Of a DNA stretch of 37,094 nt, positions 5,350 to 37,094 are shown piece by piece; position 1 is the stretch's first letter; the number at the start of each line of letters is the position of its first letter. The notes beneath the pieces are model-generated. The model searched no databases and had not been told where the DNA came from. It was given only the letters and a program-made list of their open reading frames with translations. Source of the DNA: Betaproteobacteria bacterium (GTDB lineage: Bacteria > Pseudomonadota > Gammaproteobacteria > Burkholderiales > Thiobacillaceae); NCBI GenBank assembly GCA_007280375.1, contig QYQG01000037.1, positions 1-37,094 on the forward strand. The letters run 5' to 3'. The position numbers and the translations under genes were made by a program.

Positions 5350-5673
5350 ATGAACACTCAACAGATACAACAGCAAGTCATCGATACCGATGAGCACATC
5401 GAGCAGGCCTCACGCGCCATGAAGGCCATGTCGCATCCCTTGCGGCTGAAGATCCTCTGCGCCCTCGGCGACAAAGAGATCAGCGTACAAGACCTCGTCA
5501 GTCATGTGGGCACCTCGCAAAGCAACATCTCCCAGCACCTCGCCGTCCTGCGCGACAAGGGCGTGTTGCGCACCCGCAAGGACGCCAACCGCATCTACTA
5601 TCGCATCAGCGACAGCCGCACCCTCAGCCTGATCAGCATGATGCGCGATGTCTTTTGCGGCTTCGCGCAATAA
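5350..5673 (+). CDS. ArsR/SmtB-family winged-helix regulator, SqrR/BigR/YgaV-like
   Basis: AMSHPLRLKILCALGDKEISVQDLVSHVGTSQSNISQHLAVLRDKGVLRTRKDANRIYYRI is canonical ArsR wHTH; two cysteines only, at residues 37 and 103. Confidence 0.9.
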   Translation: MNTQQIQQQVIDTDEHIEQASRAMKAMSHPLRLKILCALGDKEISVQDLVSHVGTSQSNISQHLAVLRDKGVLRTRKDANRIYYRISDSRTLSLISMMRDVFCGFAQ

Positions 5674-5698
5674 GCCTGTCCTAAGCCCGTCCCTGCCC

Positions 5699-5723
5699 AT
5701 GACCCTATCATAATCAGGGTCAT
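5699..5723. terminator. Hairpin downstream of the ArsR-family gene (ATGACCCT-9 nt-AGGGTCAT), possible terminator
   Basis: 8-bp perfect inverted repeat 26 bp after the stop codon; no strong T-tract. Confidence 0.35.
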
Positions 5724-5767
5724 ATTAATCATTGCGAAGGTGCTTGCAGCGCTCGCTGCCGTAGCTT

Positions 5768-5838
5768 TCGCGGGCAAGCCCGCTCCTACGGCAGTTCGTA
5801 GCGGCCTCCACCGTAGGAGCCAGCGTGCTGGCGAACAG
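5768..5838. repeat. REP-like inverted pair (REPIN-like)
   Basis: TCGCGGGCAAGCCCGCTCCTAC (5768-5789) facing GTAGGAGCCAGCGTGCTGGCGAACAG (5813-5838); matches the familiar GTAGGAGCGGGCTTGCCCGCGA REP pattern. Confidence 0.75.
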
Positions 5839-5920
5839 CACTTACTTACGCAACGATTGATATCACGGTTGTCATCTCACAGTTGTCAAACGCCTAGTAC
5901 GCGATACAATCCGCCCATCC

Positions 5921-5949
5921 TTGCATTAGCAAGAGGCATGGAATATAAT
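5921..5949 (+). promoter_or_regulatory. Sigma-70-like promoter for tolC-MFP-RND: TTGCAT-17 bp-TATAAT
   Basis: -35 at 5921-5926, consensus -10 at 5944-5949; -35 lies in a short inverted repeat CTTGC-ATTA-GCAAG (5920-5933). Confidence 0.65.
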
Positions 5950-5963
5950 TATTTGCTTATATA

Positions 5964-5994
5964 CGACCCTTGTTACGCCTCGCAACAAGGGTCG
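5964..5994 (+). promoter_or_regulatory. Leader hairpin CGACCCTTGTT-9 nt-AACAAGGGTCG upstream of tolC
   Basis: Perfect 11-bp inverted repeat starting about 14 nt after the -10 box and ending 29 nt before ATG 6024. Confidence 0.55.
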
Positions 5995-6023
5995 CGTGTC
6001 GGACTACCGATCGGAGAGCGTGG

Positions 6024-7415
6024 ATGAGAACACGATTGTTGCTGGCCCTATGGGGTCATTTGATAGCGGCGGGTACTTTGCCAGCACACGCCCTCGCGGC
6101 ACCGGTCACGCCGGTGGATCTGCGCCAGGCCATTGCCGCCGCCCTCAGCCAAAACCCCGACCTAGACGCCACGCGCAGCCAGATCCAACAAGCCGAGGCC
6201 GCCGTGCGTCAGGCCGAGGGCAACAAGCTGCCCCAGGTGAACCTCTCTCTGACCGGTTCGCGTAGCAATGACCCCCTAAATGCATTTGGCATGAAACTGG
6301 GGCAACGCCATGTAACCTTTGGCGACTTTGATGCCAGCCAATATATAGGCCCAAGCAGCGTAGGCGTCGAACCCAGCACACTCAATAACCCCGGGGCCGT
6401 CAACAACTTCAACACCCGTATCGAACTGCTCATGCCGATCTACAACGCCGGCCAGATCCAGAGCCATGTCGATACCGCCAAGTCCTATGTCCGGGCCGCG
6501 CAGTCTGGCGATGCGGTGGCGCGGCAACACCTCATCAAGCAGGTATTAATGGCCTACCAAGGCGTACACACCGCGCGCGCCTACATCACCCTGGCCGCCG
6601 ATGCGAACAAAGCCGCCCAAGAGTTTGCCCGCGTCAGTGACCGCCTCCATCAGCAAGGCATGGTCTTGAAGAGCGATGTCCTCTCCGCACGCGCCAACCT
6701 GCAAGAGATGAAGATCAAGGTCATCGAGGCCAAGAACGCTGAAGCCGCCGCCTTAGATCAACTCGCGCTGATGATGAGCCGCCCGCTCCACGAGGCCCTC
6801 GATGTCGGCGCGCCCGTCATCCCCAAACTCTTACCCGGCACGACGGCCGAACTGCGCGCCCAGGCCCTCGCCAAACACGCCGGTATCAACGCCTTACGCA
6901 ACCAGATCGACGGCGCCGGCCATCAGGTCAAAGCCGCCCGCGCCGAGCGCATGCCCAAGTTTAATGTCATGGCGCGGCAGGACTGGAACGACAAACAGAT
7001 CGGCCTAGAGGCCGCCTCCTACACCGTGGCCGGCGTCTTATCGTGGACGGCGTTCGACGGCGGCATCACCCGCGCCGCCATCGACCGTGCCGAGGCCGCA
7101 CGCAGTGAACTGGCCGCCAAGCTACGCCAAGCCGAAGCAGGCGTGGCGTATCAAGTCGGCGAGGCGCAGCGCAAGGCCCTCGAAGCCGACGAAAAGATCG
7201 TCGCCCGTGAGTCCGGCGTGGCGCAGGCCGAAGAGGCACAACGCCTGATCAAGAAACGCTATGAAAACGCCATGGCCACGGCCGTCGAGGTCTTGGCCGC
7301 ACAAGCCCAGAGCGACAAGGCGCGTGCCGATCTGGTCGCCGCACACTATGACGCCGCCGTCCAACGCGCAGAACTGCAACGCGTCGTTGGCGTACTCTCT
7401 GTCGATACCCTGTAA
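6024..7415 (+). CDS. TolC-family outer-membrane efflux protein; likely start 6024
   Basis: Signal peptide, two OEP repeats with periodic coiled coil (LRQAIAAALSQNPDLDATRSQIQQAEAAVRQAEGNKLPQVNLSLTGSRS). Confidence 0.92.
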   Translation: MRTRLLLALWGHLIAAGTLPAHALAAPVTPVDLRQAIAAALSQNPDLDATRSQIQQAEAAVRQAEGNKLPQVNLSLTGSRSNDPLNAFGMKLGQRHVTFGDFDASQYIGPSSVGVEPSTLNNPGAVNNFNTRIELLMPIYNAGQIQSHVDTAKSYVRAAQSGDAVARQHLIKQVLMAYQGVHTARAYITLAADANKAAQEFARVSDRLHQQGMVLKSDVLSARANLQEMKIKVIEAKNAEAAALDQLALMMSRPLHEALDVGAPVIPKLLPGTTAELRAQALAKHAGINALRNQIDGAGHQVKAARAERMPKFNVMARQDWNDKQIGLEAASYTVAGVLSWTAFDGGITRAAIDRAEAARSELAAKLRQAEAGVAYQVGEAQRKALEADEKIVARESGVAQAEEAQRLIKKRYENAMATAVEVLAAQAQSDKARADLVAAHYDAAVQRAELQRVVGVLSVDTL

Positions 7416-7441
7416 ACCCCGTCGTGTTCGAGGTCTCCCCC

Positions 7442-8518
7442 ATGAAAAATATCCCCCTGACCGCCTTGGTCCTCGCCCTCTCTCTGACTGCCTGTTCTGA
7501 CCCTGCCGAGCAGGCCAGCGCAAACGCCGTCGTGCGCACGATCAACGCCGAGAGCGTCCTGATCGAACCCACCGAGACCGCCAGCGTCATCACCACCGCC
7601 GGCAGCGTCGTCGCCGTAGAATCGGTCAAGGTCGCCTCGCGCCTGATGGGTCACATCCGCGACATCGCCGTCGTGGAAGGGCAGGCCGTTAAGGCAGGGC
7701 AACGCCTCTTTACCGTCGATCCTATCGATGTCGAGGGCGCAGTCGAGCAAGCCCGACTCGGTTTACAGCAAGCCGAAGATGCCCGTAAAGATGCCAAGGC
7801 CGACTACGACCGCTTTGCCAACCTCTATAAAGACGAGGTCGTCACCCGGCAAAACTACGAGAAGATGAAGCTAGGCTACGAGATCGCGGTGTCGCGCGCC
7901 GCACAGGCCAAGGCCGGACTCGCTACGGCCACGGGGCAATTGCGTTACGCCACCGTCACCGCCCCGATCAGCGGCGTCGTCACCCAAAAGCTGGCCAATG
8001 AGGGGGATATCGCCGCGCCAGGCCACCCCGTGGTCATCGTCGAAAACACCGCGCACCTCCAAGTACAGACCAGCGTTGACGACAGCGTCTTCCGTAGCCT
8101 CAAGCAGGGTGACCGCATCAAGGTCGAGATCGACGGTCAAGCCGCCCCGCTCACCGCCAAGATCGCACGCATCTCTCCCGCCGCCGACCCGATGACCCAC
8201 ACCTATCTGGTCAAACTCGATGTGAGCGGTACGCGACTCCACAGTGGCGCCTTTGCCCGCGTGCATTTCGCCACCGGCCTGCGTCTGATGTTGGCCGTTC
8301 CCCAGACCGCACTACAAAACCGCGCGGGCATCGAAGGCGTCTTCGTCATCGACGCGCAGGGCATCGCCCAATACCGCATGGTGCGCGCCGGGGCCGAAAA
8401 AGCCGGTCAAGTCGAGATCCTATCCGGCCTGAGCGCGGGTGATCGCGTCGTCAGCAGCAAGGCCGCCACGGTGAATAACGGCGATCGCATCGTCGCCGCC
8501 CCTGCTGTAGCCAAATAA
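7442..8518 (+). CDS. RND efflux periplasmic adaptor (MFP/HlyD-like) lipoprotein; likely start 7442
   Basis: Lipobox LTAC; VASRLMGHIRDIAVVEGQAVKAGQRLFTVD biotinyl-lipoyl-like half; YATVTAPISGVVTQKLANEGDIAAPGHPVVIVE. Confidence 0.93.
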   Translation: MKNIPLTALVLALSLTACSDPAEQASANAVVRTINAESVLIEPTETASVITTAGSVVAVESVKVASRLMGHIRDIAVVEGQAVKAGQRLFTVDPIDVEGAVEQARLGLQQAEDARKDAKADYDRFANLYKDEVVTRQNYEKMKLGYEIAVSRAAQAKAGLATATGQLRYATVTAPISGVVTQKLANEGDIAAPGHPVVIVENTAHLQVQTSVDDSVFRSLKQGDRIKVEIDGQAAPLTAKIARISPAADPMTHTYLVKLDVSGTRLHSGAFARVHFATGLRLMLAVPQTALQNRAGIEGVFVIDAQGIAQYRMVRAGAEKAGQVEILSGLSAGDRVVSSKAATVNNGDRIVAAPAVAK

Positions 8519-8532
8519 CCGAGGCCGCCACC

Positions 8533-11500
8533 ATGAGCACGACCGACGACCACAGCAACGCACCCGAAAACCTCGCCGGAAAACTGGCGCGTATCTTCTT
8601 ACGCTCCAAGATGACGGCGCTGTTTATCCTCGCCGTTACCTTGACCGGCCTCTTGGCACTCATCGTCACGCCGCGCGAATACAACCCGCAGATCGTCGTC
8701 CCGGCCGCCAACATCATCGTCGCCAAGCCCGGCGCGTCGGCCGCCGAGATCCAAAACCTCGTGGTCAAACCGCTCGAGGCGATCATGAACGCGCAAGCCG
8801 GTGTCGATCACACCTACGGCTTTGCCAGCAACGACTTCGGCCTCGTCACGGTGCAATTTAAGGTCGGCGAAGACCAAGAAAAAAGCCTCGTCAAGCTCTA
8901 CAACCAGATCATGCAAAACTGGGATCGCATCCCGCCCGGCGCGATGGAACCCATCATCAAGCCGATCAATGTCGATGATGTGCCCATCATGACGCTCACG
9001 CTCAACTCCAGCACGCACGACGATATGCGCCTGCGGCAGGTGAGTCAGCGCGTGTTGGAACAGCTGCGTAATGTGCCTGGCGTCTCCTTCACGCAGATCC
9101 TGGGTGGTCGCGCCCAGGCACTCAATGTCTGGATAGACCCGCAACGCCTAGAGTCCTCGGGCGTCACCTTAGACCGTATCGATCAAGTCCTGAGCGGTAC
9201 CAATGTCGCCGCGCCCTTGGGCGACCTGGTGCAAAGTAATCGTAGCGTCCCCTTGCGCATGGCCTGTTTCCTGTGTTCCGCCGAGAAGGTACGCCAGATC
9301 GTCGTCGGCACCTCACGCACCGGTGCGCCTATCTATCTTCAAGATGTCGCCCGGATCGAAGATGGTGCGGTGGAGACCGAAGAGACCACCCGCTTTGCCT
9401 ATGGCCTCGCCAGTGCCGCCGGTTTGTCGCGTGATGAGCGCCCCGCCGTCACCCTCGCCATCGCCAAGAAGTCCGGCACCAACGCCGTGGTCGTCGCCGA
9501 TGCCGTCCTTGCCAAACTGGACGAACTAAAAAGCCAAGCCATCCCTGCCGGCATCGACATCGCCGTCACCCGCAACGATGGCGCCAAGGCCGATGCGGCG
9601 GTGAACGAACTGGTCATGCACCTCGGCATCGCCATCGCCTCGGTGGTCGTCATCCTCGTTGCCTTCTTGGGCTGGCGCGAGGCTGGCATCGTCACCATGA
9701 CCGTGCCGCTCATCCTCTTCGTGGTCCTCGCCGTCGGGTTTGTCGCCGGTCAGACCATGAACCGCATCACCCTGTTTGCACTCATCCTCTCGCTCGGACT
9801 CTTGGTCGATGCCGCCATTGTGGTGATCGAGAACATCCACCGCCACTTGCACCACGGCGGCGGCAAAGACTTTGGTCAGACCTTGATCACGGCCACCAAC
9901 GAGATCGGCAATCCGACCAATATCGCCACCATCGCCGTCATCTTGGCCTTCATCCCCATGGCCTTCGTCAGCGGCATGATGGGGCCATTCATGTTGCCCA
10001 TCCCCTTCAATGTGCCGATCGCCATGATCGCCTCCATCCTCGTCGCCTACATGGTCGTGCCGTGGGCCGCTAATCTATGGCTGCGCGGCAAGGCCTTGAA
10101 AGCCATGGAGACGACGCCTACGCTGGAAGAGATAGGCGAGTCGAAGCGAGACCCGTTGCACCGCGCCTATGTCGCCACCCTCACCCCGTTGATCGCCTCG
10201 GCCACCAAACGCAACATCACCTTTGCCCTCGTGCTCACCCTCTTGGGCGGCGCAATGTTGATGCCGGCCTGGCAATTCATCCGCCCATCAGGACTGAACG
10301 GCCCACTCTCGCCACTCGGTGTCGAGCTCAAGATGTTGCCTAACGACAACACCAACACCCTGTTGCTACAGGTTGACATGCCCACCGGCACGGCCTTGGC
10401 CGCGACGGATCAGGTCGCCCGAGCGGTGGGCGCGGTCATCGCCAAACACCCGCATGTCACCGATTATCAGACCTTCTCGGGCCTCACGGCCCCGATAGAC
10501 TTTGCCGCCCTCGTGCGCGGCGACATGATCAAGCGCGGCACCAATCTGGCCCAGATCCGCGTCAACCTCGTGGACAAACATCACCGCGATGATGCCTCGC
10601 ACAGCATCGCTATCCAGATGAACGAGGCCCTCGCCACCGTGCGCCAAAAACACCCCAGCGCCAACATCAAGCTCTACGAAACGCCACCCGGCCCGCCGGT
10701 ACAGGCGCAGATCTTGGCCGAACTCTACGGCCCGGATTACGAGCGACTACGCGCCGCCGCACCGATCATCGACAGCGCCTTCAAGGGCATCTACGGCATG
10801 ATCAATGTGGATGATTCGGTGACCGCCAACGCGGATAACTTCCACATCCAGATCGACCGTGAAAAGGCCATGCTCGCCGGCATCGTCCCCGGACAGATCG
10901 CCAAACTGCTGCGCGACTATGTGGCCGGTCTCAACATCGGCACGCTGCATGTGACCAGTGCCCGCGAGCCGATCGACATCCGCGTGCGCCTGCCGCATGA
11001 ACTACGCACCCAGCCTGAATCCTTGATGAGCCTGCGTATCACCAACCCGCACGGGCAACAGATCCCGCTGTCGGCCATTGCCAGCATCAAGCCGGTGCAA
11101 CAAGCGCGCCCCATCTACGATCGCGATCAACACCCCATGGTCATGGTCGGCGGCGAGCTGCTCAAGTCCAGCCCGGTGTACGCCGTACTCGCCTTGGATG
11201 CGCAGCTAGACGGCAAGGTGCTACCAGATGGCACCGTCTTCAAGACCGGCAATCTCGGCTTCACCCAGGCCAGCCCCAAGGATGTGGTGGAGAACACCCT
11301 GCTCTGGGGTGGTGAGATGCGCCTGACACTCGATGTCTTCCGCGACCTCGGTTCGGCCTTCATCGTCGCCCTCATCCTCATCTACCTGATGCTGGTCGGC
11401 TACTACAAGTCCTTCATGTTGCCGCTCATCGTCATGGGCGCGATCCCGCTCACCTTGGTTGGCGTCTTCCCCGGCCATGTCATCACCGGTCAGGCCTTCA

Positions 11501-11835
11501 CCGCCACCTCAATGATCGGCGTCATCGCCTTGGCCGGTGTCGTGGTGCGCAACTCGCTATTGCTGATCGACTTCATCCTCGATTATCGCAAACAAGGTTA
11601 CAGCCTGAAGGAGGCCGTGATCGAGGCCGGTGCGGTGCGTTTCCGCCCCATCCTGCTCACCGCCTTGGCCATCATCTTGGGTTCGGCCATCATGACCACC
11701 GACCCCGTGTTCGGCGGCCTCGCCGTCAGCCTCATCTTCGGCACCTTCGCCTCCACCGCACTGACCTTGGTCGTCATCCCCTTGGTGTACTTCCTCTGGC
11801 AGCGCAACGCCCAACCTACAACGACCCCCACCTAA
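8533..11835 (+). CDS. RND-superfamily efflux permease
   Basis: 1100 aa; TM4 LGLLVDAAIVVIENIHRHL; late GVIALAGVVVRNSLLLIDFI...EAGAVRFRPILLTALAIILGSAIM; positioned after OMF and MFP. Confidence 0.95.
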   Translation: MSTTDDHSNAPENLAGKLARIFLRSKMTALFILAVTLTGLLALIVTPREYNPQIVVPAANIIVAKPGASAAEIQNLVVKPLEAIMNAQAGVDHTYGFASNDFGLVTVQFKVGEDQEKSLVKLYNQIMQNWDRIPPGAMEPIIKPINVDDVPIMTLTLNSSTHDDMRLRQVSQRVLEQLRNVPGVSFTQILGGRAQALNVWIDPQRLESSGVTLDRIDQVLSGTNVAAPLGDLVQSNRSVPLRMACFLCSAEKVRQIVVGTSRTGAPIYLQDVARIEDGAVETEETTRFAYGLASAAGLSRDERPAVTLAIAKKSGTNAVVVADAVLAKLDELKSQAIPAGIDIAVTRNDGAKADAAVNELVMHLGIAIASVVVILVAFLGWREAGIVTMTVPLILFVVLAVGFVAGQTMNRITLFALILSLGLLVDAAIVVIENIHRHLHHGGGKDFGQTLITATNEIGNPTNIATIAVILAFIPMAFVSGMMGPFMLPIPFNVPIAMIASILVAYMVVPWAANLWLRGKALKAMETTPTLEEIGESKRDPLHRAYVATLTPLIASATKRNITFALVLTLLGGAMLMPAWQFIRPSGLNGPLSPLGVELKMLPNDNTNTLLLQVDMPTGTALAATDQVARAVGAVIAKHPHVTDYQTFSGLTAPIDFAALVRGDMIKRGTNLAQIRVNLVDKHHRDDASHSIAIQMNEALATVRQKHPSANIKLYETPPGPPVQAQILAELYGPDYERLRAAAPIIDSAFKGIYGMINVDDSVTANADNFHIQIDREKAMLAGIVPGQIAKLLRDYVAGLNIGTLHVTSAREPIDIRVRLPHELRTQPESLMSLRITNPHGQQIPLSAIASIKPVQQARPIYDRDQHPMVMVGGELLKSSPVYAVLALDAQLDGKVLPDGTVFKTGNLGFTQASPKDVVENTLLWGGEMRLTLDVFRDLGSAFIVALILIYLMLVGYYKSFMLPLIVMGAIPLTLVGVFPGHVITGQAFTATSMIGVIALAGVVVRNSLLLIDFILDYRKQGYSLKEAVIEAGAVRFRPILLTALAIILGSAIMTTDPVFGGLAVSLIFGTFASTALTLVVIPLVYFLWQRNAQPTTTPT

Positions 11836-11844
11836 AGGAAACCT

Positions 11845-12066
11845 ATGTCTATTGAACGCATCGTCCGCATCGTCGCCGGCCTTATGATCCTCCTCTCCCT
11901 GTTCCTCGCCCACAACGCGGGCACGGTCGACCTGACCGCCGCAAGCTGGCTCTGGTTCACCGCCTTCATCGGCGTCAACCTGCTCCAATCGGGGTTTACC
12001 AACCTCTGCCCGCTGGTCGCGATCCTCAAAAAACTCGGCTTTAAAGAAGGCGGCGCCTGCTGTTAA
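11845..12066 (+). CDS. DUF2892 (YgaP-like transmembrane domain) protein, 73 aa
   Basis: MSIERIVRIVAGLMILLSLFLA...WLWFTAFIGVNLLQSGFTNLCPLVAILKKLGFKEGGACC; two TM helices and the CP motif typical of the family. Confidence 0.85.
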   Translation: MSIERIVRIVAGLMILLSLFLAHNAGTVDLTAASWLWFTAFIGVNLLQSGFTNLCPLVAILKKLGFKEGGACC

Positions 12067-12090
12067 GCGTAAGCAAACTTCCTACCCTCT

Positions 12091-12119
12091 GACAGGCTGG
12101 AGTAAAATCCCAGCCTGTC
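12091..12119. terminator. Hairpin GACAGGCTGG-9 nt-CCAGCCTGTC between the DUF2892 gene and the rhodanese gene
   Basis: Perfect 10-bp stem followed by GTTCTTTCT; loop contains TAAAAT that could alternatively be a -10 element for the rhodanese gene. Confidence 0.55.
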
Positions 12120-12140
12120 GTTCTTTCTGCGGTCTTTACC

Positions 12141-12557
12141 ATGCCTATCGATTTCATCACCCAAAACATCTGGCTCATCATCTTGGTCCTCACCTCCGGC
12201 CTCATGCTGGTCATGCCCTCGTTAACCGGCAAACTCTCCGGTGTCGTGCAGATTGGCCCACAAGAGGTCGTGCGCCTGTTCAACCACGAAGACGCCCTCA
12301 TCCTCGATGTACGCGAAGACTCCGAATTCCGCGATGGCCATGTCCCCAAGTCACGCCATATCCCGCTCGGCAAGCTCAAGGCCGAGATCGGCGGACTCGA
12401 AAAATATAAAGACCGCGCCGTCATCGCCATCTGCCGTAGCGGCAACCGCTCACAAAGTGCCTGCGGCCAGTTACGCCGCGCCGGTTTCACCAAGGTACAC
12501 AACCTCGCCGGCGGCATCGGCTCGTGGGACCAAGCCGGTCTACCCAAAGAACGCTAA
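12141..12557 (+). CDS. yibN: Membrane-anchored rhodanese-like protein (YibN-like)
   Basis: N-terminal TM then single rhodanese domain (LILDVREDSEFRDGHVPKSRHIPLG; active loop CRSGNRS); followed by grxC and near gpmI as in E. coli. Confidence 0.85.
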   Translation: MPIDFITQNIWLIILVLTSGLMLVMPSLTGKLSGVVQIGPQEVVRLFNHEDALILDVREDSEFRDGHVPKSRHIPLGKLKAEIGGLEKYKDRAVIAICRSGNRSQSACGQLRRAGFTKVHNLAGGIGSWDQAGLPKER

Positions 12558-12581
12558 TCTATTAAACGCCTAGGAACGACC

Positions 12582-12839
12582 ATGCCCATCGTAAAAATGT
12601 ATTGCACCGCGACCTGCCCCTACTGCGTCATGGCCGAAAAGCTCCTCAACCGCAAGGGCGTTACCACGATCGAAAAGATCCGCGTTGACCTACAGCCCGA
12701 GCAGCGCGACGCCATGATCGCGCTCACCGGCCGCCGCACCGTGCCACAAGTCTTTATCGGCGAACAGCACATCGGTGGCTTTGACGACCTCTCTGAGCTG
12801 GATGCCGCAGGCGACCTAGAGCCCTTGCTCGCAGCGTAA
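12582..12839 (+). CDS. grxC: Glutaredoxin 3
   Basis: 85 aa, CPYC active site, RRTVPQVFIGEQHIGGFDDL. Confidence 0.94.
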   Translation: MPIVKMYCTATCPYCVMAEKLLNRKGVTTIEKIRVDLQPEQRDAMIALTGRRTVPQVFIGEQHIGGFDDLSELDAAGDLEPLLAA

Positions 12840-33855: not shown

Positions 33856-35787
33856 TCATTGCGGGCGGAGGGCGTGGTTAAGGTAGGCGCGTAGGCGCGC
33901 GGGTTTCAAGGGTTTGTGCAACAAGGTGAGGCCGGAAGCGTTGATCGCCGCGATGGTTTCCGGGCCGGTGTCGCCGGTGATGATGGCGGCGGGCAGGCCT
34001 TCGCCCAGTTCTTGGCGCAACCAGCGCACGCTGACGATGCCGTCGCGCTCACCGGGTAGACGATAATCGGACAGGATGACATCGGGCAGACGGCCTAATT
34101 CGCCCAAGGCATCGAGCAAGGCCTCGGCTGAAACCGCCGCGACCGTTTCCATCCCCCATTCGCGCAGCAGCGTCGTCATCGCCCCCAAGATGAGGGTGTC
34201 ATCGTCGAGGATGGCGATCAAGGGCGCATCCTCACGCGGCAGGGTAGCGGTGGCGTCCGTCGTGACCGTCACCGCCGTAACCTGTATCGGCGTACAGCGC
34301 GCCAAGGTCAGCCCAAAGCGCGAACCGCGCCCCAGCGTCGAGCGCAGCGTCACCGCGCTGCCCAGCAACTCGGCCTCTCGCGCCACGATGGCGAGGCCCA
34401 AACCCAGGCCCTTGGCGCGTTGCCGTTCGGGGTTGTCGATCTGGAAATATTCCTCAAAGACCTGCGCCTGTTGCCGGGCGGCGATACCCAAACCGGTATC
34501 TAGCACCTGCAACTCCACCGCACCGGCGCGTCGCCGCGCACCGACAATGACACGCCCCTGCGGCGTATAGCGGATGGCGTTGCTGACCAGATTCATCACG
34601 ATGCGCTCCGTCAACAACGGGTCGCTCTGCGCCGATAGGCTACAGGGCAACACACGCAGCGTCAGGCCTTTTTCGGCGGCAGTCGGGGCAAAATGTTGCC
34701 GGATATTGTCCAGCACCCCTTGCACCGGAAAACACTCCGGCTGCGCCTGCACGATACCAGCATCAAGGCGCGAGAGGTCGAGCAGACCGCCCAGCATGTC
34801 GCCCATCGCCGTGGCCGAGGCATCGATGTGCGCCGTCAGGCGTTGCAACTCACCTTCCGGCACCTTGTCTTTCAGGGCGGAGATCAACAGGGTCAGGGCG
34901 TGCAAGGGTTGGCGCAGGTCATGGCTGGCGGCGGCGAGAAACTTGGACTTGGCACGCACGGCGGCCTCGGCGGCTAGTTTTTGCTCCGTCAACTCGGCGG
35001 TTGCCGTCTGGATGCCGATCTGTAGATTTTCGTGCACATCGTGCAAGGTCTCCGCCATGTCGTTGATGTCTCGTTCCAGTTGTCGCAACTCGCCCTCGGC
35101 CTGTTCGACCGGACAGCGCGCGTCTAGGCGACCACGGGTCAAGGCGTGTACCGTGTCGGTAATGCGATGCAGGCGGCGCGCCAAGCGACGACTCAAGGTC
35201 CACGCCATGGTCGCGGCGAGGGCGATCAGGCCGATTAGAAAGGTCAAGATCGTCAAGAGGCTCTCACGCTGTGCGGCGCGAATCGGCGCATCGTTCAAAA
35301 CCACCACGACATGGCCGATCGCGCCCACGCCCAACACACTGTCCATACCCATTGCCTGCGCGCTTTGCACCAAGCCGATCGGGCGACGGAAGAAATAGTC
35401 GTCGTCCACGCGCCGCTCGGCGTGTGTTTGCAACAGGGCACGGTTGGCCAACAAGGCCTCCTTACCGCTCTTGACCCACCAGCGCCCGTGCTCATCGACC
35501 ACGCCAATCGCGTCTCGCTGAGGGTTGAGGCCCGCGTGATCGGCTAGGCGTTGCAGGTTGGCCGTGCTCCCCGTGAAGAGGTCATAGGCGGCGACCTCGG
35601 CCAATTGAGTGGTCAGCTCGCGGCCGCGTTGGCGCAAGGCGGCCTCGGCCTCGCGGCCACTTTGATGCACTTCATAGACCGCAAACAAGGCCGCGCTCAA
35701 CACCGCAGGCAAGAGCGCCAGCCACAGCAAACGCGCATGCAGCGTGCCAACACAACGACGCAGGCTAGAAAACCACGACAGGTACAC
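33856..35787 (-). CDS. Hybrid sensor histidine kinase with C-terminal receiver domain
   Basis: Two TM regions, HAMP, AAASHDLRQPLHALTLLISALKD H-box, LVSNAIRYTPQG N-box, DTGLGI G1, C-terminal REC (ILDDDTLILG...VILSDYRLPG...LHKPLKPARL). Confidence 0.94.
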   Translation of the reverse strand: MYLSWFSSLRRCVGTLHARLLWLALLPAVLSAALFAVYEVHQSGREAEAALRQRGRELTTQLAEVAAYDLFTGSTANLQRLADHAGLNPQRDAIGVVDEHGRWWVKSGKEALLANRALLQTHAERRVDDDYFFRRPIGLVQSAQAMGMDSVLGVGAIGHVVVVLNDAPIRAAQRESLLTILTFLIGLIALAATMAWTLSRRLARRLHRITDTVHALTRGRLDARCPVEQAEGELRQLERDINDMAETLHDVHENLQIGIQTATAELTEQKLAAEAAVRAKSKFLAAASHDLRQPLHALTLLISALKDKVPEGELQRLTAHIDASATAMGDMLGGLLDLSRLDAGIVQAQPECFPVQGVLDNIRQHFAPTAAEKGLTLRVLPCSLSAQSDPLLTERIVMNLVSNAIRYTPQGRVIVGARRRAGAVELQVLDTGLGIAARQQAQVFEEYFQIDNPERQRAKGLGLGLAIVAREAELLGSAVTLRSTLGRGSRFGLTLARCTPIQVTAVTVTTDATATLPREDAPLIAILDDDTLILGAMTTLLREWGMETVAAVSAEALLDALGELGRLPDVILSDYRLPGERDGIVSVRWLRQELGEGLPAAIITGDTGPETIAAINASGLTLLHKPLKPARLRAYLNHALRPQ

Positions 35788-35804
35788 GCGGCGAGCCTGA
35801 GCGT

Positions 35805-36458
35805 TTAGGCCAGACCGGCCTTCTGCGCCACCAAGACCGCCTCGGTACGATTAGAGGCATCCAGTGCACGCAGAACAGCGGTGACATGGATCTTCACCGT
35901 ACCCTCAGTGAGGTGAAAGGCCTCGGCGATCTGCCGATTGCTCATCCCCTGCCCCATCAGACGCAAGACCTCTAACTGTCGCTCGGTCAAGCTGGCCAAG
36001 CGGGGACCGCTGGGGCTGACGGGATGCAGGATAGGGGCCACGCTCTGCGCGCTGAGCAGTTCGGGCGGGGCATAGACGCCACCGGCCAGCACCAGGTGCA
36101 TCGCCAACAAGATCACCGCCGGGGCCGAGGCCTTGCTGATATAGCCCATCGCGCCGGCGGCCAAGACCTGCCGCACCTCATCGGGACGATCCGCCGCCGA
36201 CAGGACGATGAGCGGGATATGCGGAAAACGCGCGCGGAACTGGGTGATGCCCTCGATCCCCGTGCCGCCCGGCATATTGAGATCGAGCAAGGCCAGATCC
36301 ATCTCCGTATGCTGAGCCGTGATCGCATAGGCGCTGGGATAGTCTATCGCCTCTAAGATCTCGACCTGGGCATCGAGCTTAAGTAATACAGGTTTAACCC
36401 CCTCACGGAACAGGGGATGGTCATCGGCAAGCAGTATTTGCATGGCAGGCAGCGACAA
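35805..36458 (-). CDS. NarL/FixJ-type response regulator with LuxR HTH
   Basis: ILLADDHPLFREGV, LDLNMPGGTGIEG, SKASAP; LTERQLEVLRLMGQGMSNRQIAEAFHLTEGTVKIHVTAVLRAL. Confidence 0.95.
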   Translation of the reverse strand: MSLPAMQILLADDHPLFREGVKPVLLKLDAQVEILEAIDYPSAYAITAQHTEMDLALLDLNMPGGTGIEGITQFRARFPHIPLIVLSAADRPDEVRQVLAAGAMGYISKASAPAVILLAMHLVLAGGVYAPPELLSAQSVAPILHPVSPSGPRLASLTERQLEVLRLMGQGMSNRQIAEAFHLTEGTVKIHVTAVLRALDASNRTEAVLVAQKAGLA

Positions 36459-36604: not shown

Positions 36605-36675
36605 GCCTTCCATCGCGAAACGAAACCTACGCCGCGAACAGCTTTCTAACCTTTCTATCTTACTTGGAGTTTCAA

Positions 36676-37094
36676 ATGAAATTATCTACCCTTGTTTCTG
36701 CCCTGACCCTGTCGGCTATCGCTACCGTTTCGTTCGCTGCTGATCTGGCTAAATTGCCTGCTGCCGTGGCGACTCCTAAGGCTGCCGTGGCTACGATGCA
36801 ATCCCTGATGGACCCGGCGACTTCGATCGCTTTGATCCAGAGCTCGATTGATCCGGCCTTCTACACGAAGATGGGCCAGTCGGCTATGGACCCCAAGACC
36901 GTTGGCGCGTACATGGTTTTCGCTGACCCGGCCCTGGCCACTCAGTGGATGGCCGCTTCGATGGACCCGAACTTCGCCATGAGCATGGTTACTCCGATGA
37001 TGAACCCGAACACCTATGTGAAGTGGATGTCCGCTCCTATGGATCCTCGCGTTCTGAACCTCGGCAGCCAGCTGATCAACCCGTCTTTGTACAC
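36676..37094 (+). CDS. Secreted MDP-repeat protein, unknown function, truncated at window edge
   Basis: Manual translation from ATG 36676 with GGAG RBS at 36666-36669: MKLSTLVSALTLSAIATVSFAADLAKLPAAVATPKAAVATMQSLMDPATSIALIQSSIDPAFYTKMGQSAMDPKTVGAYMVFADPALATQWMAASMDPNFAMSMVTPMMNPNTYVKWMSAPMDPRVLNLGSQLINPSLY..., open to the end. Confidence 0.85.
   Translation, partial: MKLSTLVSALTLSAIATVSFAADLAKLPAAVATPKAAVATMQSLMDPATSIALIQSSIDPAFYTKMGQSAMDPKTVGAYMVFADPALATQWMAASMDPNFAMSMVTPMMNPNTYVKWMSAPMDPRVLNLGSQLINPSLY

Follow-up and report, generated by a model that had tools for sequence, protein, structure and literature searches.

To our knowledge, the known sulfur-globule proteins come, with very few exceptions, from purple sulfur bacteria, and our searches of the literature found none for Thiobacillaceae. 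The phasins of polyhydroxyalkanoate granules are abundant amphipathic inclusion coats that likewise occur as several paralogues, but they are cytoplasmic, whereas the repeat proteins described here carry signal peptides. The closest described proteins, SgpA, SgpB, SgpC and SgpD of Allochromatium vinosum, are hydrophobic, repetitive proteins of the periplasm that are exported by Sec and have prolines at regular intervals; sgpD has its own promoter and terminator (PMC10386293). An exported, Met-rich protein is also known from Azospira suillum, whose hypochlorite scavenger is periplasmic (Melnyk et al. 2015, cited in PMC5358917).

Here, we describe a repeat protein gene at the end of a 37,094-nucleotide stretch of DNA (the window), which is the complete contig C32 of a Thiobacillaceae MAG of about 1.4 Mb (1,375,478 bases in 102 contigs). 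As is typical of the Sgp class, the protein has a Sec-type export signal and a sequence that is hydrophobic and repetitive, its prolines recurring at regular intervals; further shared features are several genes per genome, an own transcription unit with a terminator and occurrence in rDsr sulfur oxidisers (PMC10386293). It differs from SgpA–C, with their sizes of 11–13 kDa, and from SgpD, whose P-X2-P proline pattern sets it apart by description from the one Pro per 12–13 residues seen here; the OmpA-tailed form that we found has no described counterpart among the Sgps (PMC10386293). Like the Azospira scavenger, the protein is exported and Met-rich, but its conserved residue is Pro rather than Met, and its gene lies in a context of sulfide oxidation.

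Repeat architecture and gene copies

The reading frame that starts at 36676 has no stop codon in the 139 codons before the contig ends (table 1). A first-pass annotation had claimed a regular repeat, and [D/N]P indeed occurs at residues 46, 59, 72, 84, 97, 110, 123 and 135, with spacings of 13, 13, 12, 13, 13, 13 and 12; when the mature window protein was shuffled 200,000 times, seven spacings of 12 or 13 were never reached. The signal peptide and the RBS that it had proposed could both be read from the sequence (MKLSTLVSALTLSAIATVSFA-AD and an RBS-like GGAG), and an export signal, also identified by reading, is aligned in 17 relatives (alignment A1). The unit consensus was derived from 310 distinct 13-residue units.

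Table 1. Features of the repeat protein gene and its divergent neighbours in the window.
Feature	Position	Strand	Evidence or remark
Repeat protein gene, 5' 139 codons	36676..37094	+	open to contig end; own-genome match E=4.2e-84
Sec-type signal peptide, residues 1-22 (MKLSTLVSALTLSAIATVSFAA)	36676..36741	+	sequence reading; layout conserved in alignment A1
Repeat region from residue 46, units of 12-13 residues	36811..37092	+	consensus [D/N]-P-[A/N]-x-Y-[M/T]-[K/N/R]-W-M-x-A-[P/G]-[M/L]
Shine-Dalgarno-like GGAG, 6 nt before ATG	36666..36669	+	sequence reading
Response regulator with LuxR-type DNA-binding domain, divergent neighbour	35808..36443	-	Pfam Response_reg 2.8e-21, GerE 3.8e-17
Hybrid histidine kinase with cache, HAMP, HisKA, HATPase and receiver domains, divergent neighbour	33859..35787	-	Pfam

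Past position 37094, the pattern can be followed in a full-length relative. This protein (L006, on a public MAG contig) has 213 aa, is 83% identical to the window protein over the shared part and contains 13 [DNS]P sites with spacings of 13, 13, 12, 13, 13, 13, 12, 13, 12, 13, 12 and 9, the repeat reaching the C-terminus, with Ala, Pro and Lys at the end. Its record, CAMDCO010000008.1, is titled as a Bordetella parapertussis MAG; genome kinship places it in the same genus as the window (G002), and the name looks wrong. Another relative on a public MAG contig (L007, 176 aa) is likewise cut by the contig end, and many genomes have long open frames of 400–560 aa for repeat proteins.

The proteins in A1 are hydrophobic and rich in Met and Pro, Met making up 9–20% of the mature protein. 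Across the 17 rows, 10 Pro columns are invariant, whereas no Met column is besides the start Met, and at the repeat positions Met is interchangeable with Leu, Ile and Ala. Cys and His occur in none of the 17 rows (0/17). Each D/N-P probably caps a short helix. Short helices are visible in the AlphaFold model (three sequences), which are not usable as evidence because the pLDDT is 31.

Searches of Pfam, NCBIfam and PDB sequences gave no family match, in agreement with the view that no known family was recognizable, and literature searches found no description of this 13-residue repeat. Weak matches to TrbJ, BoxB, Spy, JmjN and adenovirus IIIa fell far under their cut-offs. A phage or plasmid origin was dropped, as no relative was present in IMG/VR viral contigs or PLSDB plasmids.

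A search for paralogues returned several repeat-protein copies in the genome of the window. Contigs C10 and C35 begin with identical 141 bases (L130:1-141 and L131:1-141). This stretch is the 3' end of a window-type gene, with its final repeats, its stop codon and, after it, a strong hairpin followed by a T-run. Judged by this shared 3' end, the window-type gene is present in at least two near-identical copies, which is probably why the contig ends inside the gene. A terminator scan missed the hairpin after the stop codon, which folding reveals at -24.9 kcal/mol (z = -4.0). On C24 lies another 3' piece, which differs from these two, and any of the three may belong to the window copy. Contig C10 runs on into a cyclo-ligase/zapA/miaB-like block that is part of the usual orthologue locus of the family. 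The paralogue on C23 shares with OmpA-like peptidoglycan-binding proteins a clear C-terminal OmpA domain (Pfam PF00691, E = 3e-18); this domain is confined to some paralogues, being absent from the window protein, most paralogues and the full-length L006, and the repeat part is unrelated to OmpA-like proteins.

Codon usage and divergent neighbours

Codon choice in the repeat gene shifts in the way that the first-pass annotation had described: GCT accounts for 0.52 of Ala codons compared with 0.05 in the other window genes, and GTT for 0.59 of Val codons compared with 0.07. We scored the log-ratio towards ribosomal-gene codons with the spc operon as reference, rpsL being absent from the assembly. 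The window copy scored 0.233, while the maximum was 0.023 for 29 window genes and 0.17 for 16 ribosomal genes scored leave-one-out; two paralogues scored 0.076 and 0.065. Judged by these ratios, the codon usage of the window copy is that of a very highly expressed gene. The earlier suggestion of high expression is thereby upheld for codon usage but not for the 'good promoter', since a sigma-70 scan found none. The divergently encoded histidine kinase and LuxR-type response regulator (33859-36443, -) are a possible candidate regulator of the gene.

Elsewhere in the window, at 5350-12836 (+), reading identified an ArsR-type regulator followed by outer-membrane efflux, periplasmic adaptor and RND-type genes, and Pfam identified rhodanese and glutaredoxin genes after them. 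Possibly, these genes form a cluster for efflux in response to sulfide or persulfide.

Gene neighbourhoods and distribution

In genomes G025 and G012, soxY and soxZ are followed by genes for a sigma-54 regulator, a rhodanese, a DUF302 protein and the repeat protein, after which come fccB and a molybdopterin oxidoreductase gene; in G025 and in one G012 copy, fccA (cytochrome c) separates the repeat gene from fccB. Other arrangements were found in a sister MAG (L007), where a window-type gene lies downstream of fccB, a sulfur-transport gene (Sulf_transp) and a gene for a small secreted protein, and in the gammaproteobacterium G154, where the repeat gene adjoins a Sulf_transp gene about 5 kb from soxYZ. 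In the genome of the window, the OmpA-tailed paralogue on C23 adjoins the ATP sulfurylase gene (sat). Among the matches listed, 12 pairs of fccB and repeat gene lie within 4 kb of each other, compared with 0.9 expected at random placement.

Many paralogues have unrelated neighbours (liv transporter, mla operon, cysS). In other genera, the orthologue usually lies at a locus that encodes a liv-type ABC transporter, a small cytochrome c and the 5-formyltetrahydrofolate cyclo-ligase/zapA pair, together with a second, degenerate repeat protein. The degenerate protein (L092:8495-9445 (-), with equivalents in 12 of 20 orthologue loci) is usually encoded in tandem with the main orthologue and retains only part of the D/N-P pattern.

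With a profile of the 17 rows of A1, the family was detected in 52 of 117 genomes of Thiobacillaceae, usually with 3–10 matches each, and not in the remaining 65; the genomes without it include G085, a 2.9-Mb single-contig genome. The EAL protein of G085 matches PDB 2r6o/3n3t, which are Thiobacillus denitrificans entries, over 274 residues at 599 bits, and this match identifies the family as Thiobacillaceae. None was detected in 24 other sampled families of the same order. In a class sample of 369 genomes, the same profile revealed five further carriers among other Gammaproteobacteria (GTDB sense). With a profile built from the class-sample relatives (A3), we found seven carriers and recovered the window protein at 4.6e-12. 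Two Cys are conserved in these relatives, a difference from the members in Thiobacillaceae.

The distribution was then compared with that of sulfur oxidation genes. dsrA is present in six of the seven class-sample carriers versus 116/368 overall (p = 0.005); it was not found in the seventh, G233, whose genus mate G354 is dsrA-positive. Within Thiobacillaceae, dsrA does not separate carriers from non-carriers, and as most non-carriers have it, the repeat family is dispensable for rDsr sulfur oxidation. The genome of the window (89.9% complete) contains fccB, and dsrA was not found in it but is present in G001, G002 and G004 of the same genus. Carriers have 3.0 fccB copies per genome versus 1.05 (p = 6e-13), a difference that holds within genus g7 (9 versus 47 genomes, p = 3e-6), and these association p-values, like the others given here, overstate the independent evidence because genomes share descent. 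The separate gene arrangements are the firmer evidence.

We also noticed a second exported family, which has an exact 9-residue period (MNPATYMQW...; L097:11081-11710 (-), L097:11809-12498 (+) and L101:1616-2218 (+)). It is found in 6/369 class genomes, each of which has dsrA (p=0.0009). The five gammaproteobacterial families in which it occurs are the ones that also have the 13-residue family (co-occurrence p=2e-9). A fragment of a Met-Pro-Gly repeat protein (MPGMGGMMPGMPG...; L101:1-258 (+)) lies immediately upstream of both repeat genes.

A candidate sulfur-globule coat and its alternatives

As far as genes and their contexts can tell, the repeat protein is exported, multi-copy, very highly expressed and tied genetically to periplasmic sulfide/thiosulfate oxidation in sulfur oxidisers. 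By analogy with the Sgps, it is probably a periplasmic sulfur-globule envelope protein, Sgp-like in action and belonging to a new sequence family. What we regard as likely is that it 'works like an Sgp', which is distinct from membership of the Sgp family. The earlier description as a periplasmic, envelope or inclusion-coating protein agrees with the signal peptide, with the OmpA tail of a paralogue and with the context of sulfur oxidation, and is narrowed to a candidate sulfur-globule coat.

In such a coat, FccAB and Sox would make zero-valent sulfur in the periplasm, and the exported repeat protein would coat or nucleate the resulting globules. The D/N-P, an invariant Pro after an N-capping D/N, would cap one short amphipathic helix or turn per unit, so that a string of units could line the zero-valent sulfur surface with Met, Tyr and Trp side chains. 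Plain paralogues would form the coat and OmpA-tailed paralogues would tie it to peptidoglycan. The stored sulfur would later be taken up and oxidised via rDsr-Apr-Sat.

The alternative that survives best, though we consider it unlikely, is a general envelope structural protein, forming a periplasmic layer or a link between outer membrane and peptidoglycan, with the linkage to sulfur reflecting lifestyle only. The OmpA-tailed paralogues, the long open frames in many genomes and the paralogues adjoining the mla phospholipid operon would fit such a protein. Neither the direct, operon-like linkage to fccAB and to soxYZ, seen in several arrangements, nor the absence from more than half of the Thiobacillaceae genomes would, however, be expected of it. 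A soluble or surface carrier, binding polysulfide or S8 and passing sulfur between FccAB, Sox and a sulfur importer with no coat, would account equally for the linkage to sox, fcc and sulfur-transport genes and for the hydrophobic Met/aromatic composition. We find it less plausible still, as the Thiobacillaceae members, having no Cys, cannot be covalent persulfide carriers, and as codon bias at the ribosomal level and the many copies fit a structural protein made in mass.

A secreted adhesive or surface-layer protein, which the first-pass annotation had also raised, is highly improbable: repeat architecture and an export signal are compatible with it, but we found no secretion partner, adhesin domain or, except for OmpA, cell-surface anchor. 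Least probable of all is a Met-rich periplasmic oxidant sink or Met-based copper binder akin to the Azospira scavenger, an earlier suggestion that the high Met content favours but that is weakened by the conservation of Pro columns rather than of Met, by the exchange of Met for Leu, Ile and Ala, by the lack of His and Cys, and by the neighbourhoods read, in which no msrP/yedY was noted.

Returning to the sulfur-globule coat, we tentatively extend it to a wider proposal, for which the chances are somewhat less than even. Two undescribed exported families, one with the 13-residue and one with the exact 9-residue D/N-P-capped repeat, may together build the envelopes of sulfur globules in Thiobacillaceae as well as in several gammaproteobacterial families. 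Members with an OmpA tail would anchor the globule to the cell wall, and the resulting storage-shell system would have no sequence relation to the purple-bacterial Sgps. The simple repeat could be tested in vitro for binding of elemental sulfur. If the proposal is true, the repeat proteins would be a marker family from which sulfur storage could be predicted in the genomes of uncultured sulfur oxidisers of lakes and groundwater.
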